Shown here: piece by piece, positions 3,269 to 26,218 of the stretch
Numbering within the stretch: the first letter of the stretch is position 1
How the letters are laid out: each line of letters opens with the position of its first letter
NCBI RefSeq assembly: GCF_007995095.1
Contig: NZ_VOPY01000001.1
Coordinates: 87,001 to 151,000, forward strand
Length of the DNA stretch: 64,000 nucleotides
Direction of reading: 5' to 3'
Source of the DNA: Flavisphingopyxis soli
Lineage (GTDB): Bacteria > Pseudomonadota > Alphaproteobacteria > Sphingomonadales > Sphingomonadaceae
The notes under the pieces: model-generated
The model's database searches: none
Seen by the model: the letters and a program-made list of their open reading frames with translations, nothing else
What the model was told of the DNA's origin: nothing
Position numbers and translations under genes: made by a program

Positions 3269-3272
3269 TCCA

Positions 3273-4453: not shown

Positions 4454-4482
4454 GCGGAAGTCATAGTTATCTGGGGGTTTGA

Positions 4483-5232: not shown

Positions 5233-5236
5233 TCCG

Positions 5237-7741: not shown

Positions 7742-7743
7742 CG

Positions 7744-10586: not shown

Positions 10587-11177
10587 ATGGGGGCGAGCGC
10601 GGCGACAGTCGCAAAACCTGACGGCGTGCTGGAATTGTGTCCGGTGGACATCGGTCCGTTGCTGGCGCGGGTCAGCGCAATTTCGGAGAGAGTCTGGAGG
10701 GGCGAAGACGCGCTCAAGGAAAACGATTTTGCAGTTTTCCATCACACGCAGCACATCGTCTTTCGCTTTATCGAAGGCAATCGCGATCCCGAGACCTTCT
10801 ATTCCAACCCCGCGTGGATGGCCTGGCAGAGCCTCCTTTTGCCCGTGATGGAACAGGCAATCGCGCCATACGGTTTCCGCGCGCCGCAATTTCCCAAGGC
10901 AATGCTCGCGCGGCTTGCCGCCGGCCAGGTCATCGATCTGCATCGCGACGGCGCCGGATCGAACCTCCTGACGCACAAGATCCACGTCCCGCTGATCACC
11001 AACCCGCAGGCGTTCTTCGTTTCCGAACAGCGCCGTTTCCATCTCGCCACCGGCCATGCCTATGAGGTCGACAACATCAAGCCGCATGGCGGGATCAACC
11101 GCGGCGCGGACGACCGCATCCATTTCATCTTTGAAGTGTACGATAGCGCGAAGACAGCTGGCGCGCCCGATCGATGA
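10587..11177 (+). CDS. Aspartyl/asparaginyl beta-hydroxylase-like dioxygenase (lasso cluster)
   Basis: 196-aa cytoplasmic Fe(II)/2-oxoglutarate oxygenase of the AspH type. Visible motifs: iron ligands in DLHRDG (H119, D121) and KPHGGIN (H167), and the 2-oxoglutarate-binding arginine in DRIHFIF (R177). The core HKIHVPLITNP is also typical. ATG 10587 with GAAGGA at 10571-10576 was preferred over a TTG at 10554. The stop overlaps the kinase gene by 4 nt (ATGA), so it opens the plus-strand arm of the lasso cluster. It probably hydroxylates the peptide. The predicted core lacks Asp and Asn, so the target would have to be another residue such as Pro, or a non-core substrate. Confidence 0.8.
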   Translation: MGASAATVAKPDGVLELCPVDIGPLLARVSAISERVWRGEDALKENDFAVFHHTQHIVFRFIEGNRDPETFYSNPAWMAWQSLLLPVMEQAIAPYGFRAPQFPKAMLARLAAGQVIDLHRDGAGSNLLTHKIHVPLITNPQAFFVSEQRRFHLATGHAYEVDNIKPHGGINRGADDRIHFIFEVYDSAKTAGAPDR

Positions 11178-12139
11178 CCGCCAGCGTTCGCGATCAAACG
11201 CATGACTATTGCGTTTACGGCCTGACGATCGCCTCGGTGCTGCGGCTGCCGCATCTGTTGCCCGCGACGCTCGTCGGGAAGCCCGCCGATGTCACGATCG
11301 ACTTTGCCGACCTTTCGTTCGATGAATTCGGAGACGGGTTGAGCTTTCGCAACTGGCAGGCCCGCGAGGGGAGGCTGCTGTTCCACGCGCACGCCATCGG
11401 CCTGTTCGAAATCAGTGACGGCAACCGCATCCTGGTCGATCGCACGGCCATCGCGACCGATGCCGATGTCGTATCGATCGTGCTCGGCACGTGCATGGCG
11501 GCGCTGTTACAGCAACGCCGGATCCTGCCGCTGCATTCGAGCGCAATCGTCACCGATCGCGGTGCGGTGCTGACGATCGGGCGCTCCGGCGCGGGCAAGT
11601 CGACGCTGCTGGCCGGGTTGCTGCAGGCGGGCTGCACGATGATGGCCGACGACGTGACCGGGATCGTCTTCGACGAAAGCGGTACGCCGATCGCCCTGCC
11701 CGCCTTTCCCGCAATGCGCCTGTGGGGCGATTCGCTTGGCATGATCGGGCACGACAGCGCTCCGCTGGCGCGCGTGCGTGACGACATCGAGAAATTCTAC
11801 CTGCCGGTCGAGCGGTTCCGGGCCGATCCCTTGCCGGTCCACATGGTCATCCTGCTCACCAGCAACAACGATACCGAAACCGTAGTCCGCCCAGTCCCGC
11901 TCGCGCAGCGCGTCGAGTGTCTTGCACGCTATGTCCATCGCAAGAATTTCCTGCGCGGCCTCGGTCTCCAGCAATACGGCTTCAACACGGTGACGCGGCT
12001 CGCACAGAGGATCGAGATGGTATCGATCAGCCGCCCGTCGCTCAACCCGCGCCCCGGAAAAATGGCACGCCATGTCCTCGATCACCTCGCCGCTGCGGAT
12101 GTAGGGGTATCGAAAGATGCGGCCGTAGTGGCGAGGTGA
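11174..12139 (+). CDS. HPr kinase-like peptide kinase (lasso tailoring)
   Basis: 321-aa cytoplasmic kinase of the HprK-like family found in lasso clusters of the paeninodin type, where it phosphorylates the C-terminal Ser of the precursor. The P-loop G136-R-S-G-A-G-K142-S-T144 is intact. H121 in LPLHSSA and the acidic pair D159-D160 (MMADDVTGI) match the HprK active-site layout. The N-terminal 120 residues are the variable recognition part. Overlaps the hydroxylase by 4 nt and the next sulfotransferase by 4 nt (GTGA). The predicted precursor ends in Ser, as required for such a kinase. Function in this strain is inferred. Confidence 0.82.
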   Translation: MTASVRDQTHDYCVYGLTIASVLRLPHLLPATLVGKPADVTIDFADLSFDEFGDGLSFRNWQAREGRLLFHAHAIGLFEISDGNRILVDRTAIATDADVVSIVLGTCMAALLQQRRILPLHSSAIVTDRGAVLTIGRSGAGKSTLLAGLLQAGCTMMADDVTGIVFDESGTPIALPAFPAMRLWGDSLGMIGHDSAPLARVRDDIEKFYLPVERFRADPLPVHMVILLTSNNDTETVVRPVPLAQRVECLARYVHRKNFLRGLGLQQYGFNTVTRLAQRIEMVSISRPSLNPRPGKMARHVLDHLAAADVGVSKDAAVVAR

Positions 12140-13020
12140 GCGCAGAGTCGCCCCCACCGCAGTCCATCGTCTGGCTCGCCTCCTATCCCAAATCGGGCAA
12201 TACCTGGTTGCGCGCGATGCTGACTCACCTGCTCGATCCGGCGGATCGACCGCTCGACCTGTCGGACCTTGTCGGCGGTGCCGTTGCCGAGAATCGCCAT
12301 GCGTTCGACGACATATGCGGCATCGATTCGGCCGAATTCAGCTATGCCGAACTGTTGCCTTATCGATCGATATTTCATCATCATCTGGCGTTGGAAAACC
12401 CGCATCCGTGCTTTGTGAAGACGCACGACATGCTCGTCGCCGACGACAGGGCGGCGCCAATGTTTCCTGCCGCGGCCAGCGCAGCGGTGATTTACCTCGT
12501 CCGCGATCCTCGCGATGTCGCCGTGTCATTCGCCCACCACGCCGTCGCGAATATCGAGACGACCATCGAGCGCATGGCCGACTCTTCGGCGATGCTCAAC
12601 CAGTGGCCCGACCGGATCAGTCCCTTCCTGCCCGTCCGGCTGGGCAGCTGGAGCGATCATGTCGAAAGCTGGACCGGGCAGAACGATATTCCGCTGCTGT
12701 TGCTCCGCTATGAAGACATGCTCGCCGACCCGGTCGCATCGCTCGGTCGGGTCACCGCGATTGCCGGGCTCGACGTCACCCCGGCGCAATGCGCCGCCGC
12801 GGTCGAGGCCACAAGCTTCGAACGCCTGCAATCGATCGAACGGGCGACCGGCTTCGTCGAGAAACCGGCCAATGCACCCCGTTTCTTTCGCGCCGGCAAA
12901 AGCGGCGGCTGGCGTGATGTCCTGACACCGAACCAGGTCGAACGGATTGTCTCGGACCATCGCGCGACGATGGAACGATGTGACTATCGCACCGATTTTG
13001 GCACAACCATAAGTCGCTAA
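12136..13020 (+). CDS. Sulfotransferase 1 (lasso cluster)
   Basis: 294-aa PAPS-dependent sulfotransferase. The 5'-phosphosulfate loop YPKSGNTW is at residues 17-24. The 3'-phosphate motif YLVRDPRDVAVSF is at about 120-132, with R123 and S131. GTG at 12136 is chosen because it overlaps the kinase stop (GTGA) and puts the PAPS loop near the N terminus, as usual. It is the first of four sulfotransferases in the cluster. In the predicted core peptide, Tyr13 and the Ser/Thr hydroxyls could accept sulfate, as could a hydroxyl created by the hydroxylase (inference). Confidence 0.82.
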   Translation: MSAESPPPQSIVWLASYPKSGNTWLRAMLTHLLDPADRPLDLSDLVGGAVAENRHAFDDICGIDSAEFSYAELLPYRSIFHHHLALENPHPCFVKTHDMLVADDRAAPMFPAAASAAVIYLVRDPRDVAVSFAHHAVANIETTIERMADSSAMLNQWPDRISPFLPVRLGSWSDHVESWTGQNDIPLLLLRYEDMLADPVASLGRVTAIAGLDVTPAQCAAAVEATSFERLQSIERATGFVEKPANAPRFFRAGKSGGWRDVLTPNQVERIVSDHRATMERCDYRTDFGTTISR

Positions 13021-13082: not shown

Positions 13083-13367
13083 TTGGCAGATCTGGATATC
13101 CAACACACCGTCATTTCGCGCGCGGCCTCCGTCCTGTTCAACGATTTCGACGATGGCCTAATGATGATGGACATCGACAGCGGCAATTATTTCGACATCG
13201 ATTCAGTGGGTGCGAGCGTGTGGGCCATGCTTGAGACACCCAAGACGATCGACCAGATATGTCGCACCCTAACCGCCGAATACGATGTTGATCTCGAGAC
13301 ATGTCGTCAACAAACGTCCGACTTTATTGGCGTTTTGCGTGCCCAAAAGCTGGTTGATTTGGCCTGA
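13083..13367 (+). CDS. PqqD-like RiPP recognition element (lasso protein B1)
   Basis: 94-aa PqqD-family protein that binds the leader peptide of a RiPP precursor and delivers it to the protease and cyclase. The typical pattern is visible: FNDFDDGLMMMDIDSGNYFDID, then SVGASVWAML and a helical end DFIGVLRAQKLVDL. The start is TTG 13083; AGAGGAAA lies about 7 nt upstream. Length is normal for a stand-alone RRE of lasso clusters, where B1 and B2 are separate genes. It lies 86 nt upstream of the precursor gene. Its B2 partner is 10 kb away on the other strand. Confidence 0.88.
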   Translation: MADLDIQHTVISRAASVLFNDFDDGLMMMDIDSGNYFDIDSVGASVWAMLETPKTIDQICRTLTAEYDVDLETCRQQTSDFIGVLRAQKLVDLA

Positions 13368-13453: not shown

Positions 13454-13597
13454 ATGAGCGACAAGAAAAATTCCGCCGGGTCGGCGCCGCGCAAGACTTG
13501 GTCGCCTCCGCAGATACGAACGGTCATTCCCGTGCGCCGCACGCGTGGTGGGCCGATCACTTCGGCTCCCGAGCAACCCTTCTATTCCGTCTCCTGA
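13454..13597 (+). CDS. Lasso peptide precursor (47 aa)
   Basis: Small gene between B1 and the cyclase, with AGGGGA at 13442-13447, 6 nt before the ATG. The leader is residues 1-31. It contains K14-T-W16-S-P-P19-Q-I21, matching the K-x-Y-x-x-P-x-L leader motif read by B1 proteins, with Trp for Tyr. Thr30 stands at position -2 to the predicted cleavage after Arg31, the conserved hallmark of lasso leaders. The core is residues 32-47, GGPITSAPEQPFYSVS. Gly1 (residue 32) and Glu9 (residue 40) would form a nine-residue macrolactam, leaving the tail Q-P-F-Y-S-V-S. The ring GGPITSAPE resembles the paeninodin ring AGPGTSTPD, and the C-terminal Ser fits the HprK-like kinase nearby. Predicted, not shown experimentally. 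Confidence 0.88.
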   Translation: MSDKKNSAGSAPRKTWSPPQIRTVIPVRRTRGGPITSAPEQPFYSVS

Positions 13598-13683: not shown

Positions 13684-15492
13684 ATGCACGATATTTGCGG
13701 TGCATTCGGGCGTCGCTTGCTTCAGACGACAGACGGCATCGAAGCCGTTATTCTTGCTCAAGCGACGAACTCACCGGGCCCATTTTCTCGCGAAGCGACC
13801 GGCCCGGCGACCTTTGCCGCGTTTCCTACAAAGTCCAACAGCTGCGGCAGCGATGGGCTTCGCTGCGATGGCGATCTCATGATCGTGGCCGACTCCCGTA
13901 TCGATGATCGGGATCGGTTGCTCGATACGCTCGGGCTGACAGCAGCAGACGATCTCGCGCTCATCGCCGCCGCCTATCGCCGATGGGGCGAAGAATGCCC
14001 ACATCACCTGTTGGGTGATTATGCATTCGCGATTTACGACGCCGCCCGGAACCGGACGTTCTGCGCGCGCGATCATATCGGCGCACGTCCGTTTTTTTAT
14101 GCGCTCGACGATCAGCAGTTTCTGTTCGCCAGCGACAGCAAAGCGCTGCTTTCATCGCCAGCGGTCTCCGATGAACTCGATGACGACTTTGTCGCGAGCG
14201 CGCTGCTCCAGCGCCGTTTTGCGCCGCGCGACCGTAGTTTTTATCGTGCCATCCGCCGGCTGGAAGCCGGACACTGCCTGACGGTTTCAACCGAATTCTG
14301 CCAGCTGCGCCGCTATTGGCGACCCGAAAATGTCGCGCCGATCAACCTGCCCGACGATGACGCGTATGTCGCCGCCGCGCGCGATATGCTCGACCGGGTG
14401 ATGGACGATGCCGTGGCCGGTATTGAAACGCCTGCCGTCCATTTGAGCGGCGGCCTCGATTCGTCGCTCGTCGCCGCGCTTGCCGTGCCCAAGCTGCGGC
14501 GGAATGCCTGGTCCGATCCGGTTGGCTATTGCTGGCACCAGCTTCGCCCCGATGCTCTACCCCAGGAGGAGGCGGGCTTGACCGAGGCCATTCGCGCGCG
14601 GCTCGGGCTGCGCGTCGAGTCGCCCGAACTTAGCGCTGCGGAAATGGCAGACCTGTTCGGACGCGACTGGACGTGCGAACCCGACATCCGAAACCTGCTC
14701 CATGAAGCCGCGATCCAGCGCGATGCCAGCGCCGATGGCGTTGACGTTATCCTGTCGGGTTGGGGCGGCGACGAAGGCATTTCGTTCAATGGGCGGGGTC
14801 GTATAGCCGAATTACTCTGGCAAGGCCGGTGGTCGCGTTTGTTTAACGAGGCTGACGGTCCCGGTCCAAAACAACGCTTGCGCGTTTTCTACCACGCTTT
14901 GCGCCAGCTGATCTCGGGCGTCCTCCCGAAAGGACTTTCAAGCCCGCGAGGCCGAACTGGCCAAAGCTTTGTTGATCCCGCTTTGCTGACCCGAACGAAC
15001 CCGTTTCCCACTCTTCGAATCCGCGAAACGAGCGTCCGGCAGGTTCTCCATGACCAGCTCGAAGTCAATGCAACGACCCAACGGATTGAAGACTGGGCGT
15101 TAAGCGGTCGCCGGCATGGCATCGAATATCGCTACCCTCTGCTCGATCGCCGCATACTCGAATTCATCTATGGCCTGCCGCCGCACCTGTTCCGCCAGAA
15201 TGGAACGCGGCGTTGGCTGATGCGAGAGGTCTCAAAGGGCCTGCTCCCGGACTCGATTCGCCTCAACGACAGCAAGTTGGAACCGATCCGGTGCGCCTGG
15301 CTCGAACAGGCCCTGACCGACGCGATGGTTATCGTTGCCGATCGCCTCGATACGCGTGCGACAGAGCCGAGTAGGGCGCGGTATCTCGACATGCCGCGGC
15401 TGCGCGCACGCCTCGCCGCAATCCGCGCGGGCACGATGACCGGGCGCCCCCAGGCGTTGCGTCTGGCGCTCCAGTTCCTCGACTTCGCATGA
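13684..15492 (+). CDS. Asparagine synthetase-like lasso cyclase (protein C)
   Basis: 602-aa lasso cyclase, homologous to class B asparagine synthetases. It adenylates the side-chain carboxylate (here Glu9) and joins it to the core N terminus. The N-terminal glutaminase-like domain runs to about residue 210. Its Cys is at position 5 (ICGAFG), not at 2 as in true AsnB, which argues against a processed N-terminal nucleophile. The ATP-pyrophosphatase motif SGGLDS is at 255-260, and the synthetase domain continues to about 560. It lies 86 nt after the precursor stop, with only a weak hairpin in the gap, and overlaps the next gene by 4 nt. It is not a housekeeping asparagine synthetase, by context. 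Confidence 0.88.
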   Translation: MHDICGAFGRRLLQTTDGIEAVILAQATNSPGPFSREATGPATFAAFPTKSNSCGSDGLRCDGDLMIVADSRIDDRDRLLDTLGLTAADDLALIAAAYRRWGEECPHHLLGDYAFAIYDAARNRTFCARDHIGARPFFYALDDQQFLFASDSKALLSSPAVSDELDDDFVASALLQRRFAPRDRSFYRAIRRLEAGHCLTVSTEFCQLRRYWRPENVAPINLPDDDAYVAAARDMLDRVMDDAVAGIETPAVHLSGGLDSSLVAALAVPKLRRNAWSDPVGYCWHQLRPDALPQEEAGLTEAIRARLGLRVESPELSAAEMADLFGRDWTCEPDIRNLLHEAAIQRDASADGVDVILSGWGGDEGISFNGRGRIAELLWQGRWSRLFNEADGPGPKQRLRVFYHALRQLISGVLPKGLSSPRGRTGQSFVDPALLTRTNPFPTLRIRETSVRQVLHDQLEVNATTQRIEDWALSGRRHGIEYRYPLLDRRILEFIYGLPPHLFRQNGTRRWLMREVSKGLLPDSIRLNDSKLEPIRCAWLEQALTDAMVIVADRLDTRATEPSRARYLDMPRLRARLAAIRAGTMTGRPQALRLALQFLDFA

Positions 15493-16118
15493 TCCTCTCG
15501 TTCAGCCGCAATTTCGCGTTCGTCGCAATTCCCAAGACGGCAGGCCATGCGATCCGCAATGCGATCCGGCCGCTGCTCGCGCCCAACGACTGGGAACAGT
15601 GCACGCTCTACGAAACGCGGCTGTTCCCTGTCTCGGCGCTCGCCGCAATCGGCCACGGCCATCTCGGATGGGACGACGCTGCCCCGTTCCTGTTGCCCGG
15701 CCAGTGGGACGCGATGTTCAGCTTTGCCGTCGTGCGCGATCCCTACGACCGCTTCGTATCCTATGCGCATTTCCATTTTCGCGAGACGACGGCAATGCGC
15801 GACGATCCGCTCGGCACGATGAAGGCGGTGCTCGGCGATCCGGTTCGCAGCCGCCATATCCTGCTCCGCCCGCAGCATCGCTTCGTCTGCGACGAGGCCG
15901 GCGCGCTGCGCGTCACGCGCCTGTTGCGCCATGAGACGCTCGACGTCGATTTTGCCGCGATAGCCCCCCGGCTCGGCGCGGACCCCGGTTCGCTGCGCCG
16001 GGTCAACGCCGTGCCGCGCATCGCGGGCGTCGAACTCGACAGCGAATTGCGCCAGATGATAAACGAACGCTATGCGCGCGATTTCGCGCTGTTTGATTAT
16101 CCGGTCGAGGACCGCTGA
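15489..16118 (+). CDS. Sulfotransferase 2 (Sulfotransfer_2-like)
   Basis: 209-aa sulfotransferase of the carbohydrate type (PF03567-like). The 5'-PAPS loop is IPKTAGHAIRNAI (residues 14-26), and the 3' motif VVRDPYDRFVSY is at about 81-92 (R83). Near the short end for the family but with both motifs intact. Overlaps the cyclase stop by 4 nt, so it is surely part of the lasso operon. Substrate unknown: the lasso peptide or a sugar placed on it are the obvious candidates (inference). Confidence 0.8.
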   Translation: MILSFSRNFAFVAIPKTAGHAIRNAIRPLLAPNDWEQCTLYETRLFPVSALAAIGHGHLGWDDAAPFLLPGQWDAMFSFAVVRDPYDRFVSYAHFHFRETTAMRDDPLGTMKAVLGDPVRSRHILLRPQHRFVCDEAGALRVTRLLRHETLDVDFAAIAPRLGADPGSLRRVNAVPRIAGVELDSELRQMINERYARDFALFDYPVEDR

Positions 16119-16122
16119 GCCG

Positions 16123-17013
16123 ATGCCACAACGCTGCGCCAAGCCATCGATCGCTCTTGCCACCGTCACCTCGCCCTCGTTCCTCGTCGGGACGCAGGTC
16201 ATGATTCACTCGTTCCTCGCGCACAATCGCTGGTTCGATGGCGATATCATCGTCTTCTGCGCCGATCCCGACGATCGCGTCGCGCCCACGCTCGAGGCGC
16301 AATTCCCGCGCGTGTCGTGCCGCCGGGCCTCGGCCGAACTTGACGCAGCAATCGATCACCTCGTTGCCGCGCGTCCAGACCTTGCCACCCGACGCGATCG
16401 TTTCCTGTCGCTCGAAAGCTTCGCGCTGACCGGTTATGACAAGGTCCTGTTCTGCGACAGCGACCTGCTGTTCCAGGGCGATGTCGCCGGACTGCTCGAT
16501 GGCGAAACCCGGCTCGTCGCCTGTCCCGATGGCGCGATGCTGCGCGGCAACCGGCGCGACCGCATGACGCTCGAGGAAATCGCCGCGGACGATGGTGACC
16601 CGTTGGCGACCAGCTTCAACGCCGGCCTGATGCTGATCGACGCCGCGCTACGCGGTCCGGCGATCGCCGAGGCGCTGCGCGCGCGGCTCGCGCCCACGGC
16701 ATGGCAAGCAGTTCTGTCGCAGCATACCGACCAGGCCGTGCTCAACCTCGAATTCCACGAATGCGTCACGCTGGTCAGCACCGCCTACAATTTGATGATC
16801 GGCCACCGGATCGATTCGCATGCCAGCGAGCCGGTCCGGCTCAGTGAGGCCAAGGTGCTGCATTTCAACGGCCAGGCCAAGCCATGGCGGATGGACCGGC
16901 AGCTGGCAGGCGCAAGTCGCGACGCAGCGCTTATCGAGGCGCTGCGCTATTGGTACGACGCCTATCTGGCGATGCTCACCGCGCACCATTTCAACCAGGG
17001 GCGGACCGCGTGA
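16123..17013 (+). CDS. GT8-like glycosyltransferase (lasso cluster)
   Basis: 296-aa protein with a GT-A type nucleotide-sugar fold. An N-terminal strand-helix (SIALATVTSPSFLVGTQVMIHSFLAHN) is followed by the metal-binding D112-S-D114 in VLFCDSDLLF and a later acidic block FNAGLMLID, as in glycosyltransferase family 8. C-terminal residues VLHFNGQAKPW match the GT8 H..G..KPW signature. ATG 16123 (5 nt after the previous stop) was chosen; the frame is open upstream. It overlaps the next gene by 4 nt. Predicted to transfer a hexose to the lasso peptide or to its phosphate (inference). Confidence 0.8.
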   Translation: MPQRCAKPSIALATVTSPSFLVGTQVMIHSFLAHNRWFDGDIIVFCADPDDRVAPTLEAQFPRVSCRRASAELDAAIDHLVAARPDLATRRDRFLSLESFALTGYDKVLFCDSDLLFQGDVAGLLDGETRLVACPDGAMLRGNRRDRMTLEEIAADDGDPLATSFNAGLMLIDAALRGPAIAEALRARLAPTAWQAVLSQHTDQAVLNLEFHECVTLVSTAYNLMIGHRIDSHASEPVRLSEAKVLHFNGQAKPWRMDRQLAGASRDAALIEALRYWYDAYLAMLTAHHFNQGRTA

Positions 17014-17828
17014 ACGACCGGGTCGTACGCGACGACGGAGCCCCTTCGGGCGGCAGCACGGCGAACCTGTTCATCCTGGCACCCAACAACAGTGGATCGA
17101 CCTTTCTGGCGCGTGCGCTCGCGCAGTCGAGCGGTGCATTGTCGTTGCCGCGCGAAGGGCAGCATGTCCCGGGCTTTCACGGGCCGAGCACGCGCGGCAC
17201 GGGTACGCGGCTGCTCTGGGCGGCGGACCCCGGCGCGATTGCCCTGTTCCGCGACCCGACTGCGTTCGATTGGATCCGCACGCAGCGCGCCTGGCTCTTC
17301 CACGCCGAGGCTGCGAGCCCCGACGCGTCGATCCTCGTCGTCGCGAGCCCGCCCTTCGTGCTTTATGCCGACCAGCTGCGCGCGCATTTCCCCGACGCGA
17401 AGTTCCTCATCATGGTGCGCAATCCTTATGCTGTCGTTGAAGGCATCTGCCGGCGCGCGGATCCTGGACCGATCCCGCCGGGTGAAGACCGTCGCGTGGT
17501 CGCGGCACGCCATGTCATCACCGCGATGCGGTACCAGCGCGACAACGTCGCCGCGCTGGGCGATCGCTCGACCTGTTTCACCTATGAGGCGATGTGCGAT
17601 ACGCCCGGCGCAATCGAACACGCGATCGCGGCGCTCATTCCCGCGCTTGGCGACGTCACGCTCGATCAGAGGATCAAGGTGAAGTCGCTCTACGACGAAC
17701 CGCTGCGCAACATGAACGCCGATCAGATCGCCCGCCTGTCGCGCGACGATATTACCGCGATCAACAGCGTCTTTGCGAGTGATCACGAGCTGCTTGAAAG
17801 CTTTGGCTATCGGCTGATCGAAGCATGA
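17010..17828 (+). CDS. Sulfotransferase 3 (divergent)
   Basis: 272-aa sulfotransferase-like protein. The PAPS loop is variant, LAPNNSGSTFLARAL (residues 23-37), and the 3' motif MVRNPYAVVEGI has Asn in place of the usual Asp. It keeps the family's C-terminal helices. GTG at 17010 overlaps the glycosyltransferase stop (GTGA), and the stop overlaps the next start by 4 nt. More divergent than the other three, so activity and substrate are less sure. Confidence 0.7.
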   Translation: MNDRVVRDDGAPSGGSTANLFILAPNNSGSTFLARALAQSSGALSLPREGQHVPGFHGPSTRGTGTRLLWAADPGAIALFRDPTAFDWIRTQRAWLFHAEAASPDASILVVASPPFVLYADQLRAHFPDAKFLIMVRNPYAVVEGICRRADPGPIPPGEDRRVVAARHVITAMRYQRDNVAALGDRSTCFTYEAMCDTPGAIEHAIAALIPALGDVTLDQRIKVKSLYDEPLRNMNADQIARLSRDDITAINSVFASDHELLESFGYRLIEA

Positions 17829-18589
17829 GTTCGCCGGACATCCCCCTGCCACCCTTGTGGATATTCCTGCACGTCTCCAAATGCGGGGGAACGACGCTCC
17901 AGGCGCATCTCGAAAACCATTTCTCCATGGACGAGAGCTTCATCACGTTTTCAAACTGGGGTCGCCAATATCGCAAGCGCCTGGGTCGCCCGGAATTTGC
18001 TGATCGACCTGCTGACGAGCGGATCAAGGCCAAGGTCCTGAGCGGACATCAGACGTATTACGGGATCGACGCATTGGTCCCCGAACCACGCGACGTGCGG
18101 TATTTCACCGTCGTGCGCGACCCGGCCGAACGCTGCGTCTCATTGTACAATTTCCGGCGCAGCCGCGGCAAGGCGGCGGGCAGTTTCGACGAATGGTACG
18201 AAAGCTATTACGACGTCGAGCATCGCAATTTCATCGTCGAGCATTTTGCCAGATGCCTTGCCGGAGCCGACCTCCCCGACCCTCCCGAGCGAAGGCTCGC
18301 GCTGGCCAAGATGCTGCTCGAACGCTGCTGGTTCGTGACGACGACCGATGCTTGGGACGCCGGCCTGGCGCTGGTCAGCGATGCCATGGGCATCGCGCAC
18401 GATTGGCGTCATTATCGCCGCGCCGACAAGGCTATCCCCTTGCCGTCGTCGCATCCGACCCAGACCGAGAGCCTGCAGCGCCATTTCACCCTCGATGAGG
18501 CGACCCGCGCGCGGATCTATGCCGACTCGGCGCTCGATCTCGATCTCTATCGCTGGGTCCAGGCCAATCACTGGCCGCGCACCGACTAG
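17825..18589 (+). CDS. Sulfotransferase 4 (Sulfotransfer_2-like)
   Basis: 254-aa sulfotransferase. The PAPS loop is HVSKCGGTTLQAHL (residues 16-29), and the 3' motif FTVVRDPAERCVSLYNF is at about 94-110. The K-C-G-G-T-T loop is of the PF03567 type. Last gene of the plus-strand arm. Its stop codon (18587-18589) directly abuts the stop of the convergent membrane fusion protein, leaving no room for a terminator. Confidence 0.8.
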   Translation: MSSPDIPLPPLWIFLHVSKCGGTTLQAHLENHFSMDESFITFSNWGRQYRKRLGRPEFADRPADERIKAKVLSGHQTYYGIDALVPEPRDVRYFTVVRDPAERCVSLYNFRRSRGKAAGSFDEWYESYYDVEHRNFIVEHFARCLAGADLPDPPERRLALAKMLLERCWFVTTTDAWDAGLALVSDAMGIAHDWRHYRRADKAIPLPSSHPTQTESLQRHFTLDEATRARIYADSALDLDLYRWVQANHWPRTD

Positions 18590-21500
18590 TCAGCCCTTGC
18601 TGCGCCGTACGACGAGTTCGGCATTGGCCGGGATCGGGCCGTCGATCCTCGTCCGTGCGCCATCGCGCCAGACGACCTCGATCCGGCGCACCGAATTCGC
18701 CTTGCCGAGGCCAAAGTGCGCCTGAGGTGCATCGGCGGAAGCAAAGCCGCCGCTCTGGCGGATGTCGCGCATCTGGCGCGTGCCGTCGGTGTTGGTGACG
18801 ACGATCTTCGCGCCGATCCCGGCCGAATTGCCGATCGCGTCAACCAGCCTGATCCATAACGCGCTGCCTGCAGGATGATCATTGCGATGAACGATCGGCT
18901 GCGTCGTCGCCGACGCACGGATGATGTCGACATCGCCGTCGCGATCGTAATCGAGCAGCAGGTAGGTCGATGTCGGCACCGTATCGGCCAGCCCTGCGCG
19001 ATCGGTCGCGTTCCCGAACCCGAGGCCACGATGATTGCGGTAGAAGGTGTTGGGCATATAGCTGCGATGAACGAGGAAACCCGTCGCGACGAACAGGTCC
19101 TGCCAGCCGTCCTGGTCGAGATCGACGAACTTGGCATTCCACGCCCAGCCGGGCTGATCGACATGGAGCGCCTTGGCACGGTCTTCATAGCTGCCGTCGG
19201 CGCGGTGCTCGAGAAAGACGTTGCGCCCCCTCACGCCGCCGACATAGCCGCGCGCGATCAACTGGTCGGCACCGTCTTTGACACGCGGCCCGTTGGCCAA
19301 TTCGCACATCTGGCGCCAGTCGCTCCATCGCGCGGGCATTGCCTCGCATGCCGACGCGTCGGCGCGATATCCTGACGCCATGATCGCACTGCGCAGCGCA
19401 CAGGCCGTGCGATATTGCGTTTCGCCAATCTCGTCACAACGAGCATAGAGCCCGTTCGCAGCGCGATAGGCAGCAACCCGGTTACGCAAATCGATGAAAC
19501 AGCGACTGCGGTCGTCGGGCGCGGTGCCTACGTCGCTGCAATAGGTTTCGCCGATCTTCCATTGCTCCTTCTTGCGCCTGAAGGCGATCTGCGCGGCATA
19601 GAGATCCGGCGAAAGATCATTGTCGAGATCGCCGGCATCGAGGCTCATGGTCGTCGAGGTCAGCCAGGGAATCAGCCCATCTTCCTTTTTCGTCAGAACG
19701 AAGCGGCGATCGCCGCGGTTGAGATAGACCTTGTCCGATGTCGAAACATCGTCGCCGATCAGGATGTCGGGGCGGCCGTCGGCATTGATATCGGTAATCA
19801 GCGAGGTGAGCGATTCGCCGGGCAGGCCGTCGAGCAATTGCGGCGTGAACCGACCCCCATCGTTCCACAGGATGCGGTCGCGCGACGACAGCAGGAAGGG
19901 CGCGTGATTGTTCCCCGTCGTTCCGATCGTCCAGTTGGCGGCAAGGATATCGACATCGCCGTCGCCGTCGAGGTCGGCAAAACCCGGCGCGCCGATCATC
20001 GCGGCATCGCCGTTGGGCAGGCGGACAAAGTCGGCGACGTCAAAGCCGCCGTCATGGTTCCAGAAAACATAGGCGCCGTGAAGATAGCTTGATGCAAACA
20101 GGTCGGGGCGATCGTCGCCGTTAAGATCGACGAACGCGAGCGCGTTGATGAAATGTCCTTCGAGCGGACCCAGGTCGACCGCCTGCCGGACAAAGCGGCC
20201 CCCGTTATTGGCGAACAGCGAGATGCCGCCATGCGATGCATCGCGCGCGATCGCGACATCGGTCCAGCCATCACCCTGGATATCGCCCGCCGCTATGCCC
20301 GCGTACATTGTATAGGGCTCGACCATCTCGGTGCCCGACAAAAACGGCGGCACGTCGATGCCGATTCCCGGACCGGACAGGCGCGTGAACGCCGCACTTC
20401 CGGCCGTCCCGGCCGTCCCCGCCATCGATGCCACAGCGGGCGCGATCGCCAGTCCGATTTGGCCAGCGCCGTCATGCGCGACCGGTCGGTCAAATGGCGA
20501 ATAGCCAATCGCCCCGGCGGAAAGTTTCTGGGTCATGCTCGCGCGGCTGTTTATCTCGGCGCGATCGGCCGGCGCATTGGCAAAATCCTTGGCGTCGTGC
20601 AGCGTCGCGATCGTATTGGCATGCGCTGCGGTGCGGATGCTGCCGTCGATCAGCTGCGCAGCGACGCCGCCAAGCGCCGCGATGATCGCGAGGATCGCCA
20701 TCATCGTCGCTGCCACGCGGACCGATATCGCGCGCGCAATGATGAAGAAGGAGTAGATGCTGAACGACCCCAGGCCGAGCAGCATCGGCACGACGAACTT
20801 TGCCGGCCAGCCCGAATTGAGCAGGACGACGGCCATGATAACGTCGAACGCGATCGGTACCGGCAGGAAGATCGCGACCGCAGCAACGACGCCAACCAGG
20901 AACAACGTCTTGGCCAGCGGACCCGACAACTCGATATGATAAAGCAGTTCGCTGAACGGGAAGATCGAGACCAGGATCGACCCCAATATGCCGGCGATGA
21001 GCATCAGCGGTACGGTCACCGCGGCGATGAAAGCGAGGTTGCGCAGATAGGTCCGCGCCAACCAGCCGAGCGCAGCGATCCATCCCAGACCGGGCGCCCA
21101 CAGTTCCTGTTCGGGACGCAGCCGTTCGAGCGTCCGTATGATCCAGCTGCGTGGCTGGTCGTGTTCGAGCTTTGCAACGGCGCCCGGGCTCGTCGCCGCG
21201 GCTTCGCGAACGAAGACATAACGCGTCAGCAGCGGGATGCCGACCAGGATAAAGCCGAGCATCGCTATGAGCTTGATAGCCGCCATATAGGTCGGCAGCA
21301 GCGCGAACGACATGCTGACCACGATGACATTGAGCGTCGGCGAGGCGATCAGCGCCGCGAGCGTCGTTTCGAGCCGCATGCCCGCGCCGTGCAGTCCGCG
21401 CGCGATCGGGGCAGCGCAATTGACGCAGACACCGAGCGGTGCGCCGATGACCGCGCCGAGCGCAGCATTGGCGAACGGATGCTGGAACTGACGCCGTTCG

Positions 21501-21826
21501 ATCAGGCCCAGCAGCGTCAGCGCGCAGGCCGCGAACAACACGCCGAAGGTCATTCCGCGCCAGTTTGTATAGCCCCAGTTGATCGCGTTGGCGGTGATGT
21601 CCCACCACAGGCTGCTGTTGGGCAGGACCTCGACCAACGTATCGAACGAGATGCCTGTCAGTGGAGAATCGCCGCCCATCGAGGCCTTGAGATTGAGCGA
21701 AGGGTAACGCGATTGCGTCCAGAAATAGAGAGCGATGACCAACGTCAACGCAGCAATCAGGATGAAGCGACGGTCGCGCAGAACGGCCCGCCCGGCCGGC
21801 GAGCTTGTCACAGTATCCATCGCCAT
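18590..21826 (-). CDS. Permease - FG-GAP/VCBS - ASPIC/UnbV fusion membrane protein
   Basis: 1078-aa protein with two very different halves. Residues 1 to about 400 hold many membrane segments of the ArsP/DUF318-type permease family, with C134-V-N-C137 followed by a conserved ARGLHGAG...SPTLNV block. Residues about 480-970 carry six D-x-D-x-D-G-type calcium-binding repeats (for example DLDGDGDVDIL, DINADGRPDIL) of a beta-propeller. The C terminus (about 985-1070) is an ASPIC/UnbV domain with GIGAKIVVTNTDG and GFASADAPQAHFGLG. The propeller is presumably outside the cytoplasm. It starts 49 nt after the ABC exporter in the same direction, so it likely belongs to the minus arm of the lasso cluster. 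Role unknown: transport, surface binding or immunity. Confidence 0.78.
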   Translation of the reverse strand: MAMDTVTSSPAGRAVLRDRRFILIAALTLVIALYFWTQSRYPSLNLKASMGGDSPLTGISFDTLVEVLPNSSLWWDITANAINWGYTNWRGMTFGVLFAACALTLLGLIERRQFQHPFANAALGAVIGAPLGVCVNCAAPIARGLHGAGMRLETTLAALIASPTLNVIVVSMSFALLPTYMAAIKLIAMLGFILVGIPLLTRYVFVREAAATSPGAVAKLEHDQPRSWIIRTLERLRPEQELWAPGLGWIAALGWLARTYLRNLAFIAAVTVPLMLIAGILGSILVSIFPFSELLYHIELSGPLAKTLFLVGVVAAVAIFLPVPIAFDVIMAVVLLNSGWPAKFVVPMLLGLGSFSIYSFFIIARAISVRVAATMMAILAIIAALGGVAAQLIDGSIRTAAHANTIATLHDAKDFANAPADRAEINSRASMTQKLSAGAIGYSPFDRPVAHDGAGQIGLAIAPAVASMAGTAGTAGSAAFTRLSGPGIGIDVPPFLSGTEMVEPYTMYAGIAAGDIQGDGWTDVAIARDASHGGISLFANNGGRFVRQAVDLGPLEGHFINALAFVDLNGDDRPDLFASSYLHGAYVFWNHDGGFDVADFVRLPNGDAAMIGAPGFADLDGDGDVDILAANWTIGTTGNNHAPFLLSSRDRILWNDGGRFTPQLLDGLPGESLTSLITDINADGRPDILIGDDVSTSDKVYLNRGDRRFVLTKKEDGLIPWLTSTTMSLDAGDLDNDLSPDLYAAQIAFRRKKEQWKIGETYCSDVGTAPDDRSRCFIDLRNRVAAYRAANGLYARCDEIGETQYRTACALRSAIMASGYRADASACEAMPARWSDWRQMCELANGPRVKDGADQLIARGYVGGVRGRNVFLEHRADGSYEDRAKALHVDQPGWAWNAKFVDLDQDGWQDLFVATGFLVHRSYMPNTFYRNHRGLGFGNATDRAGLADTVPTSTYLLLDYDRDGDVDIIRASATTQPIVHRNDHPAGSALWIRLVDAIGNSAGIGAKIVVTNTDGTRQMRDIRQSGGFASADAPQAHFGLGKANSVRRIEVVWRDGARTRIDGPIPANAELVVRRSKG

Positions 21827-21875: not shown

Positions 21876-23633
21876 TCAAACGCTTCCGCCTGCCACTCCG
21901 TCCTCCGCTATCACGATGCGATAGTCGGCCATCGCGTTGAGCGCGGTCGAGTGGCTGATGCAGATGATGCACTTTGTTTCCGCCAGGGTGCGCAAACGTT
22001 CGAATATCTCGGCCTCGAGCGCGGCATCGACCGCCGACGTCGCCTCGTCGATGATCAATATCGCCGAGGGACGCAGCAACGTGCGGGCAAGGCACAGCCG
22101 CTGCCGCTCGCCACCCGACAACCGGCTGCCGCCGTCGCGGATCGAATGGTCGAGCCCTTCGGGCAGGTCGGCGACGAGATCCTTTGCTCCCGCCGTCGCC
22201 AGCGCATCCCACAACGCCGCATCGCTCGGCGCGAGATTGGGCCAGCAGAGATTTTCGCGAACGCTGCCATCGAACAGGAACGGCTCCTGCGGTGCAAAGG
22301 CGATCCGCGCCTGCCACGCCGGGCACTGCGATGCGGTGAGCGCCAGCGGCCCCGCCACGACCGTTCCCGCGCTCGGCAGGTAAAGTCCGGCGAGGAGCTC
22401 TGCCAGTGTCGACTTGCCCGCCCCCGACGGACCGCCGACATGGACCAGGCCGGTTGCCGGGATGTCGATATGCGCGGCCGACAGCAGCGTCTTTTCGGCG
22501 CCTTCCTCTCGCGTCGTCACCGTCACGTCGCGCAGTGAAATCGGGTAAGGCGTCGCATCGAACCGCGCGGGCGGCTGGTCGATCTCACGGCCATTGGGGC
22601 GCTGGCGCTCCATGTCGCGGCGCAACCGTTCGGCAACCGCATAAGCGGGCAAGGCGAAGGCAACCGACTGGAGACCCGACAGCGCGGTCGAAAGCGTCGG
22701 CACCAGCCGGATGATCACCGCTCCCATGACGAGCAGCTCGGCGCCCTTGAGTCCGACCAATCCGTAGCCGATCATCAGCAGCGCGACCGCGGCCGCCGCG
22801 CCGAGCAATTCGATCGCGCGGCGCATGCGCCCCTGCTGTGTCGCAAAGTCGATAGAGATCGCGCGCGTATCGGCAATCGCGGCATCGAACCCGCCAATAA
22901 AAACCGTCTCTGCGCCATAGACCTTGGCCGCCTTCAGTCCTTCGAGGAAGCGCGTGGTCCAGTTCATGACCTTGCGGTTGCGCAGGCTCAACGTTTCACC
23001 CAGCCGTCCGCTGCGACGGCTCCAGACCAGCGCCGTCGCGGTCGCCAGCGCGATAACGCCGAGCAGGATCAGGCCGATCGCGGGGCTGACCACGAACCCC
23101 GAGACGACATAGGCGGCAACCAGCGTCACGGTGACGAGCAACCGTGTCAGGAACTGGATCGCGACCGATATCCGGGCGATGTTCGTCGTCATGTTGTTGA
23201 GCAGATCGGCGCGTTGCATGCGCCGGATGACGGGCCAGTCGGCATAGGCGATCGTCGCGAACAGGCGGCTGCGCAGGTAATCGACATAGCCTTGCGTCAG
23301 CAGCGCCATGCGCCGGTCGCGGTGGATCAGGACGACCGATCGGACGAGCATCACCACCAGGAAGATGGCGCACAACAGCGCCATCTTCTCGATCACCTGA
23401 TCGAATCCCCATGCGTTCAGCTGCACGTCCATCTTGGCTGAAAGCGACCCCGGCCTGGTTTCGCTGGCAAAAACGAGCTGTGAAATCGGCAGCAGCATGA
23501 CGAGGCCGATCCCCTCGAGCACGCTCGCAATCGTGACGACCAGGATCGCAACGGGCAACCGCCGCCCGGCATAGCGATGGATCGACGCGATCAGCTCTCG
23601 CCAGTCTCCCGCAGATTCGATCGGCTCTTGCAC
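21876..23633 (-). CDS. ABC exporter with fused membrane and ATPase domains (lasso protein D)
   Basis: 585-aa half-transporter. Membrane segments run to about residue 335. The ATPase domain has Walker A G401-T409 (GPSGAGKST), signature LSGGERQ 505-511 and Walker B ILIIDE 525-530. This type (D) exports mature lasso peptides and confers self-resistance in known clusters. Start is GTG 23633, 6 nt after the B2 stop, so B2 and D are one operon. Export of the local lasso peptide is an inference from context. Confidence 0.88.
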   Translation of the reverse strand: MQEPIESAGDWRELIASIHRYAGRRLPVAILVVTIASVLEGIGLVMLLPISQLVFASETRPGSLSAKMDVQLNAWGFDQVIEKMALLCAIFLVVMLVRSVVLIHRDRRMALLTQGYVDYLRSRLFATIAYADWPVIRRMQRADLLNNMTTNIARISVAIQFLTRLLVTVTLVAAYVVSGFVVSPAIGLILLGVIALATATALVWSRRSGRLGETLSLRNRKVMNWTTRFLEGLKAAKVYGAETVFIGGFDAAIADTRAISIDFATQQGRMRRAIELLGAAAAVALLMIGYGLVGLKGAELLVMGAVIIRLVPTLSTALSGLQSVAFALPAYAVAERLRRDMERQRPNGREIDQPPARFDATPYPISLRDVTVTTREEGAEKTLLSAAHIDIPATGLVHVGGPSGAGKSTLAELLAGLYLPSAGTVVAGPLALTASQCPAWQARIAFAPQEPFLFDGSVRENLCWPNLAPSDAALWDALATAGAKDLVADLPEGLDHSIRDGGSRLSGGERQRLCLARTLLRPSAILIIDEATSAVDAALEAEIFERLRTLAETKCIICISHSTALNAMADYRIVIAEDGVAGGSV

Positions 23634-23639
23634 GAGGCC

Positions 23640-24173
23640 CTAGCTATCCGACCGGCGATTGGTGAACGCGCGATAGCTTGCAAGCTCTTCCTGGCCGGTC
23701 AGGCAGACGCCGCCGAGCATCAGCCAGGCATGGAGGTCGAACGGCTGAGCATCCTGGCCCGGGCGCGCGCCGAAATGGATCTGGGTCGCGATGTTGCGGC
23801 GCCGGAGCATCCAGCGCGCGGCCATCGCCTGCGGCAGGCAGACCGCTTCGAACGGCATTCGCGAGGCCGTCCGACGGACGTGCCGGCCGACCGACCTGGC
23901 CCGTGCCAACGTCGCGTTATCGGTTGCCAGTGGCGCCTCGTCGCCTTCCGGTGGGGCGATCGGACCGATCGTCCGCCGCCAGAAGCGGAACGGCACGAAC
24001 CTGACGAGCAGCCGCGCGACCGCGAGCGCCGATACCGCCTCGACCCATGCTCCGCTGCGTCGTACGACCTTGCTGATTGCGCCCACTCCCATGGCGATCA
24101 CTATGGACGAGACGGTGCGATTGGCAAGATACGCGCCCTCGCGCCCGCGCTGGCGAAATCGCGCCCGGCTCAT
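23640..24173 (-). CDS. Lasso leader protease B2 (transglutaminase-like, Transglut_core3)
   Basis: 177-aa protease that, with B1, removes the leader peptide. Catalytic residues of the transglutaminase-like fold are visible: C112 in EAVCLPQAMAARWML and H148 in FDLHAWLML, with D146 beside it. The spacing and the LPQAMA...R motif are typical for B2 proteins. The open frame runs upstream, but the ATG at 24173 overlaps the nucleotidyltransferase stop (ATGA) and gives a normal length. Together with B1 (13083-13367) it completes the split protease. Confidence 0.88.
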   Translation of the reverse strand: MSRARFRQRGREGAYLANRTVSSIVIAMGVGAISKVVRRSGAWVEAVSALAVARLLVRFVPFRFWRRTIGPIAPPEGDEAPLATDNATLARARSVGRHVRRTASRMPFEAVCLPQAMAARWMLRRRNIATQIHFGARPGQDAQPFDLHAWLMLGGVCLTGQEELASYRAFTNRRSDS

Positions 24174-25273
24174 TGCAGCAGTCGTTCGAATTGCGTCAGG
24201 CTCGCCATCGCCACGCGCCGCGCGAGGATCGACGGGCGAGGAATGGCGCCCGCGAAGACATGCCACGACGCGGTCGGAAAGCTGTCCTTGCGCAATGGCT
24301 GCGACGGTGCGGCGGGATCGCTGCCGCACAGCGAGGCGCGATAGGCGACGACCAGCCTTTGCGCTGCGGCATGCGAACCCTGGTCTTCGACCCAGTCTTT
24401 CCAGGCGTCGTGCAGGCTGCCGGCAAAAACCTCTTCGACCAGCCGCAGGCTGGCAAGGATCGCGGGGGTGCACTCATAGCTCTCGGCAAGGCTGCGCAGC
24501 GCGGCGACCCGATCATCGTCGACCGTTCGGAGCAGCGCGCTCAGGTCGGCGAGCCATTTGAGTCGCGGCCAATAGCCCATCGCGCCATGGAGGATCAGGT
24601 AGAGGACATAATGGTTGTTCGCGATGCTCGCGACGGTTTCGTCGCGCGTTGCCGAGATGAAGTCCGGCGTCAGCGTGCGCGGCTCGATCGGGAACAGCCT
24701 TTGGTGCAGTTCGATTGTCCGCCCCGTCCCCGGCTCGTCAAACCCGGTATCCTTGAGGACGCGCATCCGCCAGGCCGGCCAGCGCGATCTCATGGCGCCG
24801 ATATCGAAACAGTGGAGATACCCCGCCGCGCGCATCACGTCGCACGCCGCGCGCGCATCTGCCGGGGCGATCAGGATATCGATGTCCTTCGCATGGCGCG
24901 CCGCACTATCGCCGTAGAGCTGCTCGCCGAGCTGCGCTCCCTTGATCGCCACCGAGGCGATGCCATGCGCCTCGAGCAACGCGGTCGCGTCGGTGAGCGC
25001 CGCGCGCTGCGTCAGCGTGCGTTTCGCATTGTTGCGATAGAGACCAGTCAGCGCGCGCGCTGCGGCCTCGTCGACCCGCTCGGGATCGGCGCGCCTGGCG
25101 GCGAGGTGGAGCAGCGGCCCGACGCGATGGCGGCTGCGCGCGAATTCGACCATCGCCGCATCGACCTGCGGCGGCTCACCGCGCGGATCGAGCCCGAGCG
25201 CCGGCCGCAACAGGTCGGCAAGCGCCTCGACCGTCGGATCGCAGGATAATGCCACGCTGATCGCATCCCCCAT
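24170..25273 (-). CDS. Nucleotidyltransferase (NTP_transf_5 type) of the lasso cluster
   Basis: 367-aa protein of the family found in kinase-bearing lasso clusters (as in pseudomycoidin, where it attaches hexoses to the phosphorylated Ser). The nucleotidyltransferase core is visible: IKGAQLGEQLYGDSAARHAKDIDILI with K111-G112 and catalytic D130, D132. The ATG at 25273 is preferred because a G-rich GGGGCAGG lies about 8 nt upstream. In-frame ATGs at 25303 and 25357 are alternatives. First gene of the minus-strand arm, overlapping B2 by 4 nt. Confidence 0.82.
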   Translation of the reverse strand: MGDAISVALSCDPTVEALADLLRPALGLDPRGEPPQVDAAMVEFARSRHRVGPLLHLAARRADPERVDEAAARALTGLYRNNAKRTLTQRAALTDATALLEAHGIASVAIKGAQLGEQLYGDSAARHAKDIDILIAPADARAACDVMRAAGYLHCFDIGAMRSRWPAWRMRVLKDTGFDEPGTGRTIELHQRLFPIEPRTLTPDFISATRDETVASIANNHYVLYLILHGAMGYWPRLKWLADLSALLRTVDDDRVAALRSLAESYECTPAILASLRLVEEVFAGSLHDAWKDWVEDQGSHAAAQRLVVAYRASLCGSDPAAPSQPLRKDSFPTASWHVFAGAIPRPSILARRVAMASLTQFERLLQ

Positions 25274-25390
25274 AGTGTCGACCTGCCCCCATTGCGGTCG
25301 CATCGTCGTAGCGCCTCGCCGGCCCGACGCCAACGCCCATCGCCCGCGATCGACCATGGACTTCGCCCCACCAGCGGTTAGGCTGGCGGC

Positions 25391-26218
25391 ATGCGTATCG
25401 CCCTTTTGCAAATGACGAGCGGCATCGATCCGGTCGCGAATACCGCGGCGATCGTCGATGCGATCGGCGCGGCGAAACGCGGCGGCGCCGACATGCTGTT
25501 CGCGCCCGAGATGGCGGTGCTGCTCGATAGCGACCGGGTGCGATCGGCATCGGGAATCGTTGTGGAGAGCGATTCGGATGCTCTGAAGGCGATTTGCGAT
25601 GCCGCGCGCGACGAGGGCATCTGGGTCCATCCGGGGTCGCTGCCCCTGCTGTCCGAAGGGGACGAAGGGCGGCGGGTCAATCGCAGCTTTGTCATTGATA
25701 ATACGGGTAAAATCCGCGCGCACTATGACAAGATCCACCGTTTCGACGTGACGCTGGCGAGCGGCGAGAGCTGGCGCGAATCGAACGTCTATGACGGCGG
25801 CACGCGCGCGGTGGCGGTCGATACGCCGTGGGGGGGGCTGGGCCTCGCGATCTGTTACGACCTGCGCTTCCCCGCATTGTTCGATGCGCTGGGCAATGCC
25901 AGGTGCGACATGATCGCGCTGCCGAGCGCATTTACCGTGCCGACCGGGCGCGAGCACTGGCACGTCCTCATCCGTGCGCGCGCGATCGAGAGCGCGTGCT
26001 TCATGATCGCGCCCGCGCAGACGGGCGAACATGAAGACGGGCGGCGCACCTATGGCCATTCGCTCGTCGTCGACCCGTGGGGCCGCGTCGCGCTCGACAT
26101 GGGCGAGGAGGCGGGGCTCGGCTTCGCCGACATCGATATGCAGCTCGTCGCCGATGCGCGCGCGCAGATCCCCGTGCTCGACCATCGCCGGACGATCGGC
26201 GAGGCCGAGATTTATTGA
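25391..26218 (+). CDS. Carbon-nitrogen hydrolase (nitrilase superfamily)
   Basis: 275-aa cytoplasmic amidase. The Glu-Lys-Cys triad of the superfamily is present: E40 (FAPEMAVLL), K114 (YDKIHRFDV) and C155 (AICYDLRFP). The pattern LGLAICYDLRFPALF and the total length fit the Nit1/NitFhit-like branch, which includes deaminated-glutathione amidases. Divergent from the lasso minus arm with about 117 nt between. Probably the first housekeeping gene after the cluster; exact substrate not determined. Confidence 0.88.
   Translation: MRIALLQMTSGIDPVANTAAIVDAIGAAKRGGADMLFAPEMAVLLDSDRVRSASGIVVESDSDALKAICDAARDEGIWVHPGSLPLLSEGDEGRRVNRSFVIDNTGKIRAHYDKIHRFDVTLASGESWRESNVYDGGTRAVAVDTPWGGLGLAICYDLRFPALFDALGNARCDMIALPSAFTVPTGREHWHVLIRARAIESACFMIAPAQTGEHEDGRRTYGHSLVVDPWGRVALDMGEEAGLGFADIDMQLVADARAQIPVLDHRRTIGEAEIY

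Follow-up and report, generated by a model that had tools for sequence, protein, structure and literature searches.

A lasso-type peptide precursor of Flavisphingopyxis soli, its conserved tailoring cassette and probable sister substrates encoded elsewhere in the genome

The small open reading frame at 13,454 to 13,597 of the 64,000-nucleotide stretch of Flavisphingopyxis soli DNA analysed here (the window) is, judged by its sequence and setting, a genuine lasso-type RiPP precursor, and at a probability of roughly 70% the enzyme set encoded around it also matures two precursors whose genes lie about 490 kb away. Our verdict is a phosphorylation-linked, paeninodin-like lasso system with trans-encoded precursors and possibly non-canonical rings; what appears to be new is the trans-encoded substrate set, the tailoring cassette and the free ring spacing in relatives. 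The genes, their conservation, their co-occurrence and the signs of selection on the precursors were observed directly.

The precursor gene

The genes that concern us are the following.

10587..11177, plus strand: aspartyl/asparaginyl hydroxylase-like tailoring enzyme (PF05118, E 1.3e-8)
11174..12139, plus strand: HprK-type kinase (TIGR04352, E 7.1e-7, far below cut-off; predicted fold matches PEPCK and HprK/P)
12136..13020, plus strand: sulfotransferase ST1 (the candidate start, GTG, overlaps the end of the kinase gene; PF00685, E 1.1e-28)
13083..13367, plus strand: B1, PqqD-like leader-binding protein (TTG start; PF05402, E 1.6e-17; lasso_PqqD_Bac NF033536, E 5.5e-19)
13454..13597, plus strand: precursor A (47 aa; leader of 31, predicted core of 16, GGPITSAPEQPFYSVS)
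13684..15492, plus strand: C, asparagine-synthetase-like macrolactam synthetase (PF00733, E 3.3e-25; PF13537; NF033535, E 2.6e-73)
15489..16118, plus strand: sulfotransferase ST2a (PF03567, E 6.5e-10)
16123..17013, plus strand: GT8-family glycosyltransferase (start picked among several; PF01501, E 3.6e-19)
17010..17828, plus strand: sulfotransferase ST3 (candidate GTG start; PF13469, E 1.8e-10)
17825..18589, plus strand: sulfotransferase-like ST2b (PF03567, E 4.6e-5)
18590..21826, minus strand: ArsP_1-like permease fused to FG-GAP and UnbV_ASPIC (1078 aa)
21876..23633, minus strand: ABC exporter (PF00005, PF00664)
23640..24173, minus strand: B2, transglutaminase-like leader peptidase (PF13471; NF033537, E 1.8e-20, above cut-off)
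24170..26185, minus strand: nucleotidyltransferase-like gene, a PsmN-like candidate (start uncertain; PF14907, E 5e-40)

Precursor A runs from the ATG at 13,454 to a stop ending at 13,597, is preceded by a purine-rich ribosome-binding site (AGGGGAACGATT-ATG), and translates as the leader MSDKKNSAGSAPRKTWSPPQIRTVIPVRRTR followed by the core GGPITSAPEQPFYSVS; a gap of 86 bp separates it from B1 on the upstream side, and another of 86 bp from C on the downstream side. The leader contains W-x-x-P and a Thr at -2 (T-R before the first Gly), whereas the 16-residue core begins with Gly, has Glu at position 9 and, like both of its sisters, ends in Ser. A preliminary description had read the 47-codon gene, its ribosome-binding site, these leader and core features and its PqqD-like and asparagine-synthetase-like neighbours from the letters alone, and all of this was borne out: the neighbours match PF05402 and PF00733, and B2 and an ABC exporter also lie in the window. 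Its hand-calculated masses of 1635.78 (linear) and 1617.77 (lasso) were right, recomputation giving 1635.778 and, for the macrolactam, 1617.768, and its suggested shifts of +79.97, +15.99 and +162.05 fit the kinase or sulfotransferases, the hydroxylase and the glycosyltransferase present. It went too far in demanding exactly these features of every lasso precursor, as W/Y-x-x-P is not known from the precursors of microcin J25 (MccJ25) and capistruin, and in naming this ORF the true substrate it overlooked two further precursors in the same genome. The parallel it drew to the paeninodin ring is weak on its own; the HprK-type kinase together with the C-terminal Ser makes the better link.

Homologues of the precursor occur in many genomes, mostly at the equivalent site between B1 and C. 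A precursor regular expression, composed after members had been seen and therefore partly circular, gave 67 matches (62 unique) in 66 cassette or array loci totalling 1.21 Mb, several of these loci coming from a genome fetched twice, and none over 628 kb of control sequence (34 loci). Because it demands Ser, its matches are no independent test of the terminal Ser. In a descriptive comparison on few sites, the 21 codons spanning Arg13 to Gly33, pS/pN between the window precursor and its two remote sisters was 0.64/0.18 and 0.60/0.13, and between the precursors of genomes G290 and G120 it was 0.76/0.03; synonymous change per site exceeded nonsynonymous change in 8/8 precursor pairs compared, again over few sites. 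These values point to purifying selection on the precursors.

Lasso-type enzymes and the tailoring operon

B1, B2 and C are encoded together and the catalytic residues of B2 and C are kept, as lasso criteria call for, and B2 alone scores above its curated cut-off; B1 reached 68 bits against NF033536 (cut-off 80) and C 248 bits against the lasso cyclase NF033535 (cut-off 525). SGG-x-D of C is nearly invariant (>=92%) in 32 rows, and C112 and H148 of B2 are kept in 16/16; both sets are presumably catalytic. Since genes for B1, A, C, B2 and an ABC exporter were found together, all of the lasso functions are represented in the window. A single lasso B2 match was found in this genome, and its candidate ATG at 24,173 falls on the end of the NTP transferase gene.

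The order on the plus strand is hydroxylase, kinase, ST1, B1, A, C, ST2a, GT8, ST3, ST2b. Starts and stops overlap from hydroxylase through kinase to ST1 and from GT8 through ST3 to ST2b, and the ST2a start lies within the C stop, all with candidate starts. Between 10,300 and 18,700 there are five promoter-like sites against 1.7 expected, two of them ending at 13,054 (before B1) and 13,413 (before A), all being consensus matches only. Intrinsic terminators numbered four, fewer than shuffled sequence would give (6.9). The stretch separating A from C has no special RNA structure (z -0.14), and Rfam at gathering scores gave no match over the whole window. Directly upstream of the operon (9589-10299, plus strand) is a PilZ domain fused to a helix-turn-helix, possibly a c-di-GMP-responsive regulator. 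Further upstream, 2705-8805 (plus strand) has, by eye, the look of a chaperone-usher-type pilus or spore-coat operon, with a Pfam match in one of six ORFs submitted (chaperone-like, 4483-5232, PapD_N).

The kinase has no match in Pfam. Its predicted structure (pLDDT 93) matches PEPCK (best E 1.3e-7) and HprK/P (5.6e-6) structures, with TM scores by query length of 0.55 and 0.33, respectively. H121, K142, D159 and D160 are invariant in 32/32 rows, and we equate them, by residue places and not by alignment to PadeK, with the His-Lys-Asp-Asp motif reported for lasso kinases (PMC9266682). The kinase would be expected to phosphorylate the C-terminal Ser. Solved structures related by sequence numbered 0 for the kinase and 0 for the hydroxylase. 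The best solved matches of ST1 were 5x2b ('Sulfotransferase'), TEG12 and SULT1-type enzymes, whose phenol-type acceptors suggest, without proving, that a Tyr would be a suitable target.

Over a set of 34 hand-chosen loci, ST1 residues S20, G21, T23, H97, R123 and S131 are invariant in 30/30 and K19 and W24 are kept in >=92%, which we take to be the motifs of a PAPS-dependent sulfotransferase; hydroxylase H119, H167 and R177 are invariant in 34/34 and GT8 D112 and D114 are kept in 32/32, and the B2 count given above comes from the same set. By these residues, the cassette enzymes look active.

Spread of the cassette

A collection of 84,980 species genomes was scanned with the hydroxylase alignment, and 80 of 145 confirmed relatives were kept. 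Classed after inspection, 46 of the 80 are cassette-type loci, in which we found the kinase in 40, C in 39, ST1 in 36, GT8 in 34, ST3 in 33 and B1 in 30; all seven genes, the hydroxylase included, are present in 23/46. Among the 46 are several short contigs and a few loci (L133, L141 and L146, for example) with few cassette genes. The kinase, ST1, B1, C, GT8 and ST3 were found in 0/34 of the remaining loci, and an ST2a-like gene in 33/34. This second locus type, a hydroxylase relative with an ST2a-like gene (L149 and L152-L184; Lysobacter, Caulobacter, Brevundimonas and others), may serve a further peptide or protein that becomes hydroxylated or sulfated.

Hosts of the cassette include Sphingopyxis, Pontixanthobacter, Parerythrobacter, Citromicrobium, Aurantiacibacter and Amylibacter, and metagenome-assembled genomes labelled, perhaps wrongly, as Acidobacteria, Pyrinomonadaceae, Verrucomicrobia, Gemmatimonadetes, Anaerolineales, Saprospiraceae and Gammaproteobacteria. 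On gene content, hydroxylase, HprK-type kinase, sulfotransferases and GT8 make the operon a conserved tailoring cassette. Copies of the permease/FG-GAP protein, 51-54% identical and convergent to the cassette, occur in seven related clusters, and copies of 39% and 33% identity lie in the other orientation in two further clusters; a receptor, export or immunity partner is a possible role. In Amylibacter marinus (L142, 14221-17119), a single cassette is accompanied by four distinct precursor-like ORFs in a 3-kb stretch, and the leaders of two lack the usual Thr spacing.

Within the family, a three-row precursor profile matched 27/298 genomes at E <= 0.01, and the pattern was present on reading in nine, including that of the window; the other 18 were dropped as weak matches (E 3e-4 or worse) in which it was absent. 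A profile of 15 of the 16 precursors then known, from eight genomes and leaving out the near-duplicate from G120, matched 13/397 family genomes, the window's included and G321, G342, G357 and G376 being new, and 6/396 genomes in an order-level draw, all six among those 13. All 15 of its rows carry Phe-Tyr and a final Ser, neither of which had been required in finding them. The window kinase matched 68/397 family genomes at E <= 1e-15, and the best 13 are exactly the 13 precursor genomes, counted among related genomes, eight of which supplied the profile rows, and with the cut at 13 set afterwards: the 14th, G089, is close (7.2e-42 vs 4.2e-42), and its precursor match is weak (E 6.2e-4). A lasso B2 is present in 13/13 precursor genomes and in 3/3 others tested (G026, G037 and G044); lasso B2 genes are common in the family, and its presence is thus no special link.

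Three gammaproteobacterial MAGs (G624, G626 and G633) gave 13, 15 and 16 precursor-like matches at E <= 0.01, which were not used as evidence because several cassettes may be present, weak matches are numerous and stops occur in a few. On gammaproteobacterial MAG chromosomes (these genomes and L126, L131 and L132), precursors in some loci have a VDGEV motif replacing T-x, and hydroxylase loci number two on some of the chromosomes.

Precursors away from the cluster

Searching the window's genome with the 47 amino acids yielded two more precursors at C1:591459-592090 (E 1.4e-10 and 1.1e-9), with cores GGGGTGPESPFYAAS and GGFASRAENGPFYSVS. Both share leader and tail with precursor A, both have Glu at position 8, and the 18 kb inspected around them held no other cassette gene. 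A tRNA-Arg, a common insertion site, is close by, and translations read by eye place the pair between purQ-like and malate-synthase-like genes. Insertion at tRNA genes was rejected as a general pattern: of eight loci checked, two of them from the fragmentary genome G342, one had a tRNA.

Over 12 of the 13 precursor genomes of the family, a count that omits G342 (a fragmented MAG with three precursors), 11 of 26 precursors are in the cluster and 15 are remote, at distances of 0.36 to 1.35 Mb. The remote genes are in 5/12 genomes, each of which gave one B2: two in the window's genome (G000), one each in G015 and G290, four in G221 and seven, in two arrays, in G321. Apart from a weak ABC-ATPase likeness, the remote loci held no cassette genes, and by eye no promoter motif common to in-cluster and remote precursors was seen. 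In G221, the cluster is without its own precursor and a four-gene precursor array lies 1.19 Mb away; the B1 stop (L054:2659) and the C start are separated by at most about 60-90 bp, leaving no room for one (C aligns from 2565, with its reading frame open at 2628). Because the sister genes are distant and have no enzymes beside them, a single enzyme set probably yields several peptides.

We infer the reactions, their order, the processing of the remote precursors, the threading and the product from the gene set as follows. B1 would bind the W-x-x-P-x-[ILV] motif of the leader, and the C-terminal Ser would be phosphorylated, perhaps several times, by the kinase. Further decoration of the core, most probably at or close to the conserved Tyr-x-x-Ser tail, would fall to the hydroxylase, the sulfotransferases and the GT8/NTP transferases. 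B2 would cut after T-R, C would join Gly1 to Glu9, and the ABC pump would export the product. The same set would mature the two remote cores, making them part of a dispersed substrate library with shared leader and tail.

Core anatomy

Lasso rings are described as having 7-9 residues (PMC8498205, PMC9266682). We aligned 44 of 58 listed precursors, matches from L122, L133, L138 and L143 having been dropped earlier and one double-W sequence re-cut; the 41/44 with Thr at W+13/14, which are related and hand-chosen sequences, are counted here. The typical precursor ends E-x-x-Phe-Tyr-x-x-Ser. After T-x, residue 1 is Gly in 28, Ala in 7, Ser in 5 and Thr in 1, and residue 2 is Gly in 37 and Ala in 4. 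Defined as the first acid in the five residues preceding the last Tyr, the acid is at position 8 (2), 9 (16), 10 (12), 11 (9), 12 (1) or 13 (1), with a mean of 9.85; it is followed by 6-8 residues in 40/41, and three residues follow the Tyr in 32/41.

Asp or Glu at core positions 7-9 is present in 22/41, the window core with its E9 among those that obey, and absent in 19/41, which weakens the word "lasso" for the family. As the acid lies at 10-13 in 23/41 precursors, the ring rule cannot be presumed here. A predicted start one residue later would raise the fit to 31, and two residues later to 37, so that a later cut becomes an alternative. The E10 core GGPGNIRPVENAFYATS is identical in G290 and G120 despite 24 synonymous vs 3 nonsynonymous differences over the whole gene, and is thus not decay-like. 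G221 and G321 each contain cores of several spacings, and one B2 was found in each. Kinase-type lasso clusters of relatives were considered as a ring-size control and rejected: the regular expression gave seven rows in four loci, none credible by eye, leaving no same-family control for the rule.

Alternative readings

Ring closure might follow the tail, with C measuring from that end and closing at the tail-proximal acid whatever its spacing, which would give 8- to 13-residue N-terminal macrolactams, many of them lariats or lassos outside 7-9. The [GAST] and [GA] residues at positions 1 and 2 in 41/41, the near-constant distance from acid to C-terminus over a spread of 8-13, the 19 precursors with no acid at 7-9, the unchanged E10 core, and the several spacings with one B2 in G221 and in G321 all argue for this. 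We nevertheless consider it doubtful: reviews state rings of 7-9 (PMC8498205, PMC9266682), a one-residue change is said to cut production significantly (PMC13352647), the window core needs no such rule, the acid near Tyr may be a sulfotransferase recognition residue, and the 41 rows are related and hand-chosen. Moving the cut one or two residues beyond T-x, within or after the GG (GPITSAPE... or PITSAPE...), would instead bring most rings to 7-9, as the rise from 22 to 31 and 37 indicates; part of that gain follows from the mean spacing, however, and four of 41 still fail. A cut two residues later would also leave the [GAST][GA] pair in the leader and make many cores begin with residues such as Pro, Phe, Val, Ile or Thr, and the microcin J25 precursor is cut between T-K and GG. 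We judge such a shift unlikely, the fixed T-x cut being the likelier. A broader proposal, which we make tentatively, is a separate, widespread RiPP class with lasso-type B1/B2/C acting in trans on a constant leader, a constant acid-x(2,3)-[Phe]-Tyr-x-x-Ser tail and hypervariable N-terminal segments of free length, yielding 8-13-residue macrolactams with phosphate, sulfate, hydroxyl or sugar on the tail.

The remaining readings touch the genes themselves. In an ordinary lasso cluster, the remote genes would be unprocessed relics of lost clusters; the absence of enzymes at remote loci and the tRNA-Arg by the sisters in the window's genome are in line with that. We hold it to be very unlikely, as the remote ORFs are intact, show signs of purifying selection and match the resident set in leader and tail, while G221 has a cluster without its own precursor and remote genes recur in 5/12 genomes counted. 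That the window ORF is not a gene at all could be argued from its small size and its lack of a match in Pfam or NCBIfam, but it is barely conceivable in view of the homologues in many genomes, mostly between B1 and C, the selection signs and the 34 control loci free of regular-expression matches. We retain the lasso-type precursor, matured together with its remote sisters, as the best explanation.

Relation to known systems

Lasso kinases act on a C-terminal Ser, to which an NTP transferase (PsmN) adds hexose; kinase systems are described in Firmicutes and in Sphingobium yanoikuyae (SyanK), and some Firmicutes lasso clusters contain a putative sulfotransferase gene (PMC8498205, PMC9266682). 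The window has in common with the paeninodin-like systems (PadeK, ThcoK, SyanK and pseudomycoidin PsmK/PsmN) an HprK-type kinase, a C-terminal Ser, split B1/B2, C, an ABC exporter and an NTP transferase. Relative to them, it adds the Asp/Asn-type hydroxylase, four sulfotransferase-like genes and GT8; moreover, the tail is short (7-8 residues), the sister precursors are distant and the spacing of relatives extends beyond 7-9.

The microcin J25 precursor resembles the window family in being cut at T-x-G-G and in carrying Phe-Tyr towards its C-terminus; unlike the family, microcin J25 is not known to have a kinase or sulfotransferases, and its tail is longer. Prochlorosin precursors are scattered genome-wide and have a conserved leader. 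One promiscuous enzyme, ProcM, acts on these many substrates (PMC10783134), but it is a lanthionine synthetase, of a chemistry unrelated to the lasso-type cyclase of the window. In the caulosegnins, one enzyme set serves three precursors with rings of 8 and 9 (PMC13352647); those precursors are within the cluster, whereas 15/26 counted here lie 0.36 to 1.35 Mb away. The Lpp-type RiPPs of Bacillota (2026) combine a separate RRE, an HprK-like kinase placing several phosphates on Ser, an NTP transferase and an MsbA-like transporter (PMC13381572); about one-third of their loci are linked to a lasso cyclase/B2, cleavage is signal-peptidase-like, and the available part of the text names no cassette hydroxylase or sulfotransferases. 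The 'unprecedented ring' of metanodin, considered as a ring-size precedent, was set aside since it concerns Asn1 and not ring size. Among the matches listed in open-licence PMC papers, there was no sulfated lasso peptide, lasso ring >9 or unlinked lasso precursor.

Significance

The filters of lasso genome mining, which look for precursors beside their enzymes and for Asp/Glu at 7-9, would miss many members of this family, 15/26 being remote and 19/41 lacking the acid. If rings of 10 or more residues are real, the best-known structural rule of lasso peptides is broken, and should the remote precursors prove to be processed, the chemistry of lasso-type systems is combinatorial, like that of the prochlorosins. 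Sulfated lasso peptides, too, would come within reach through a lasso-type system whose sulfotransferases are conserved.
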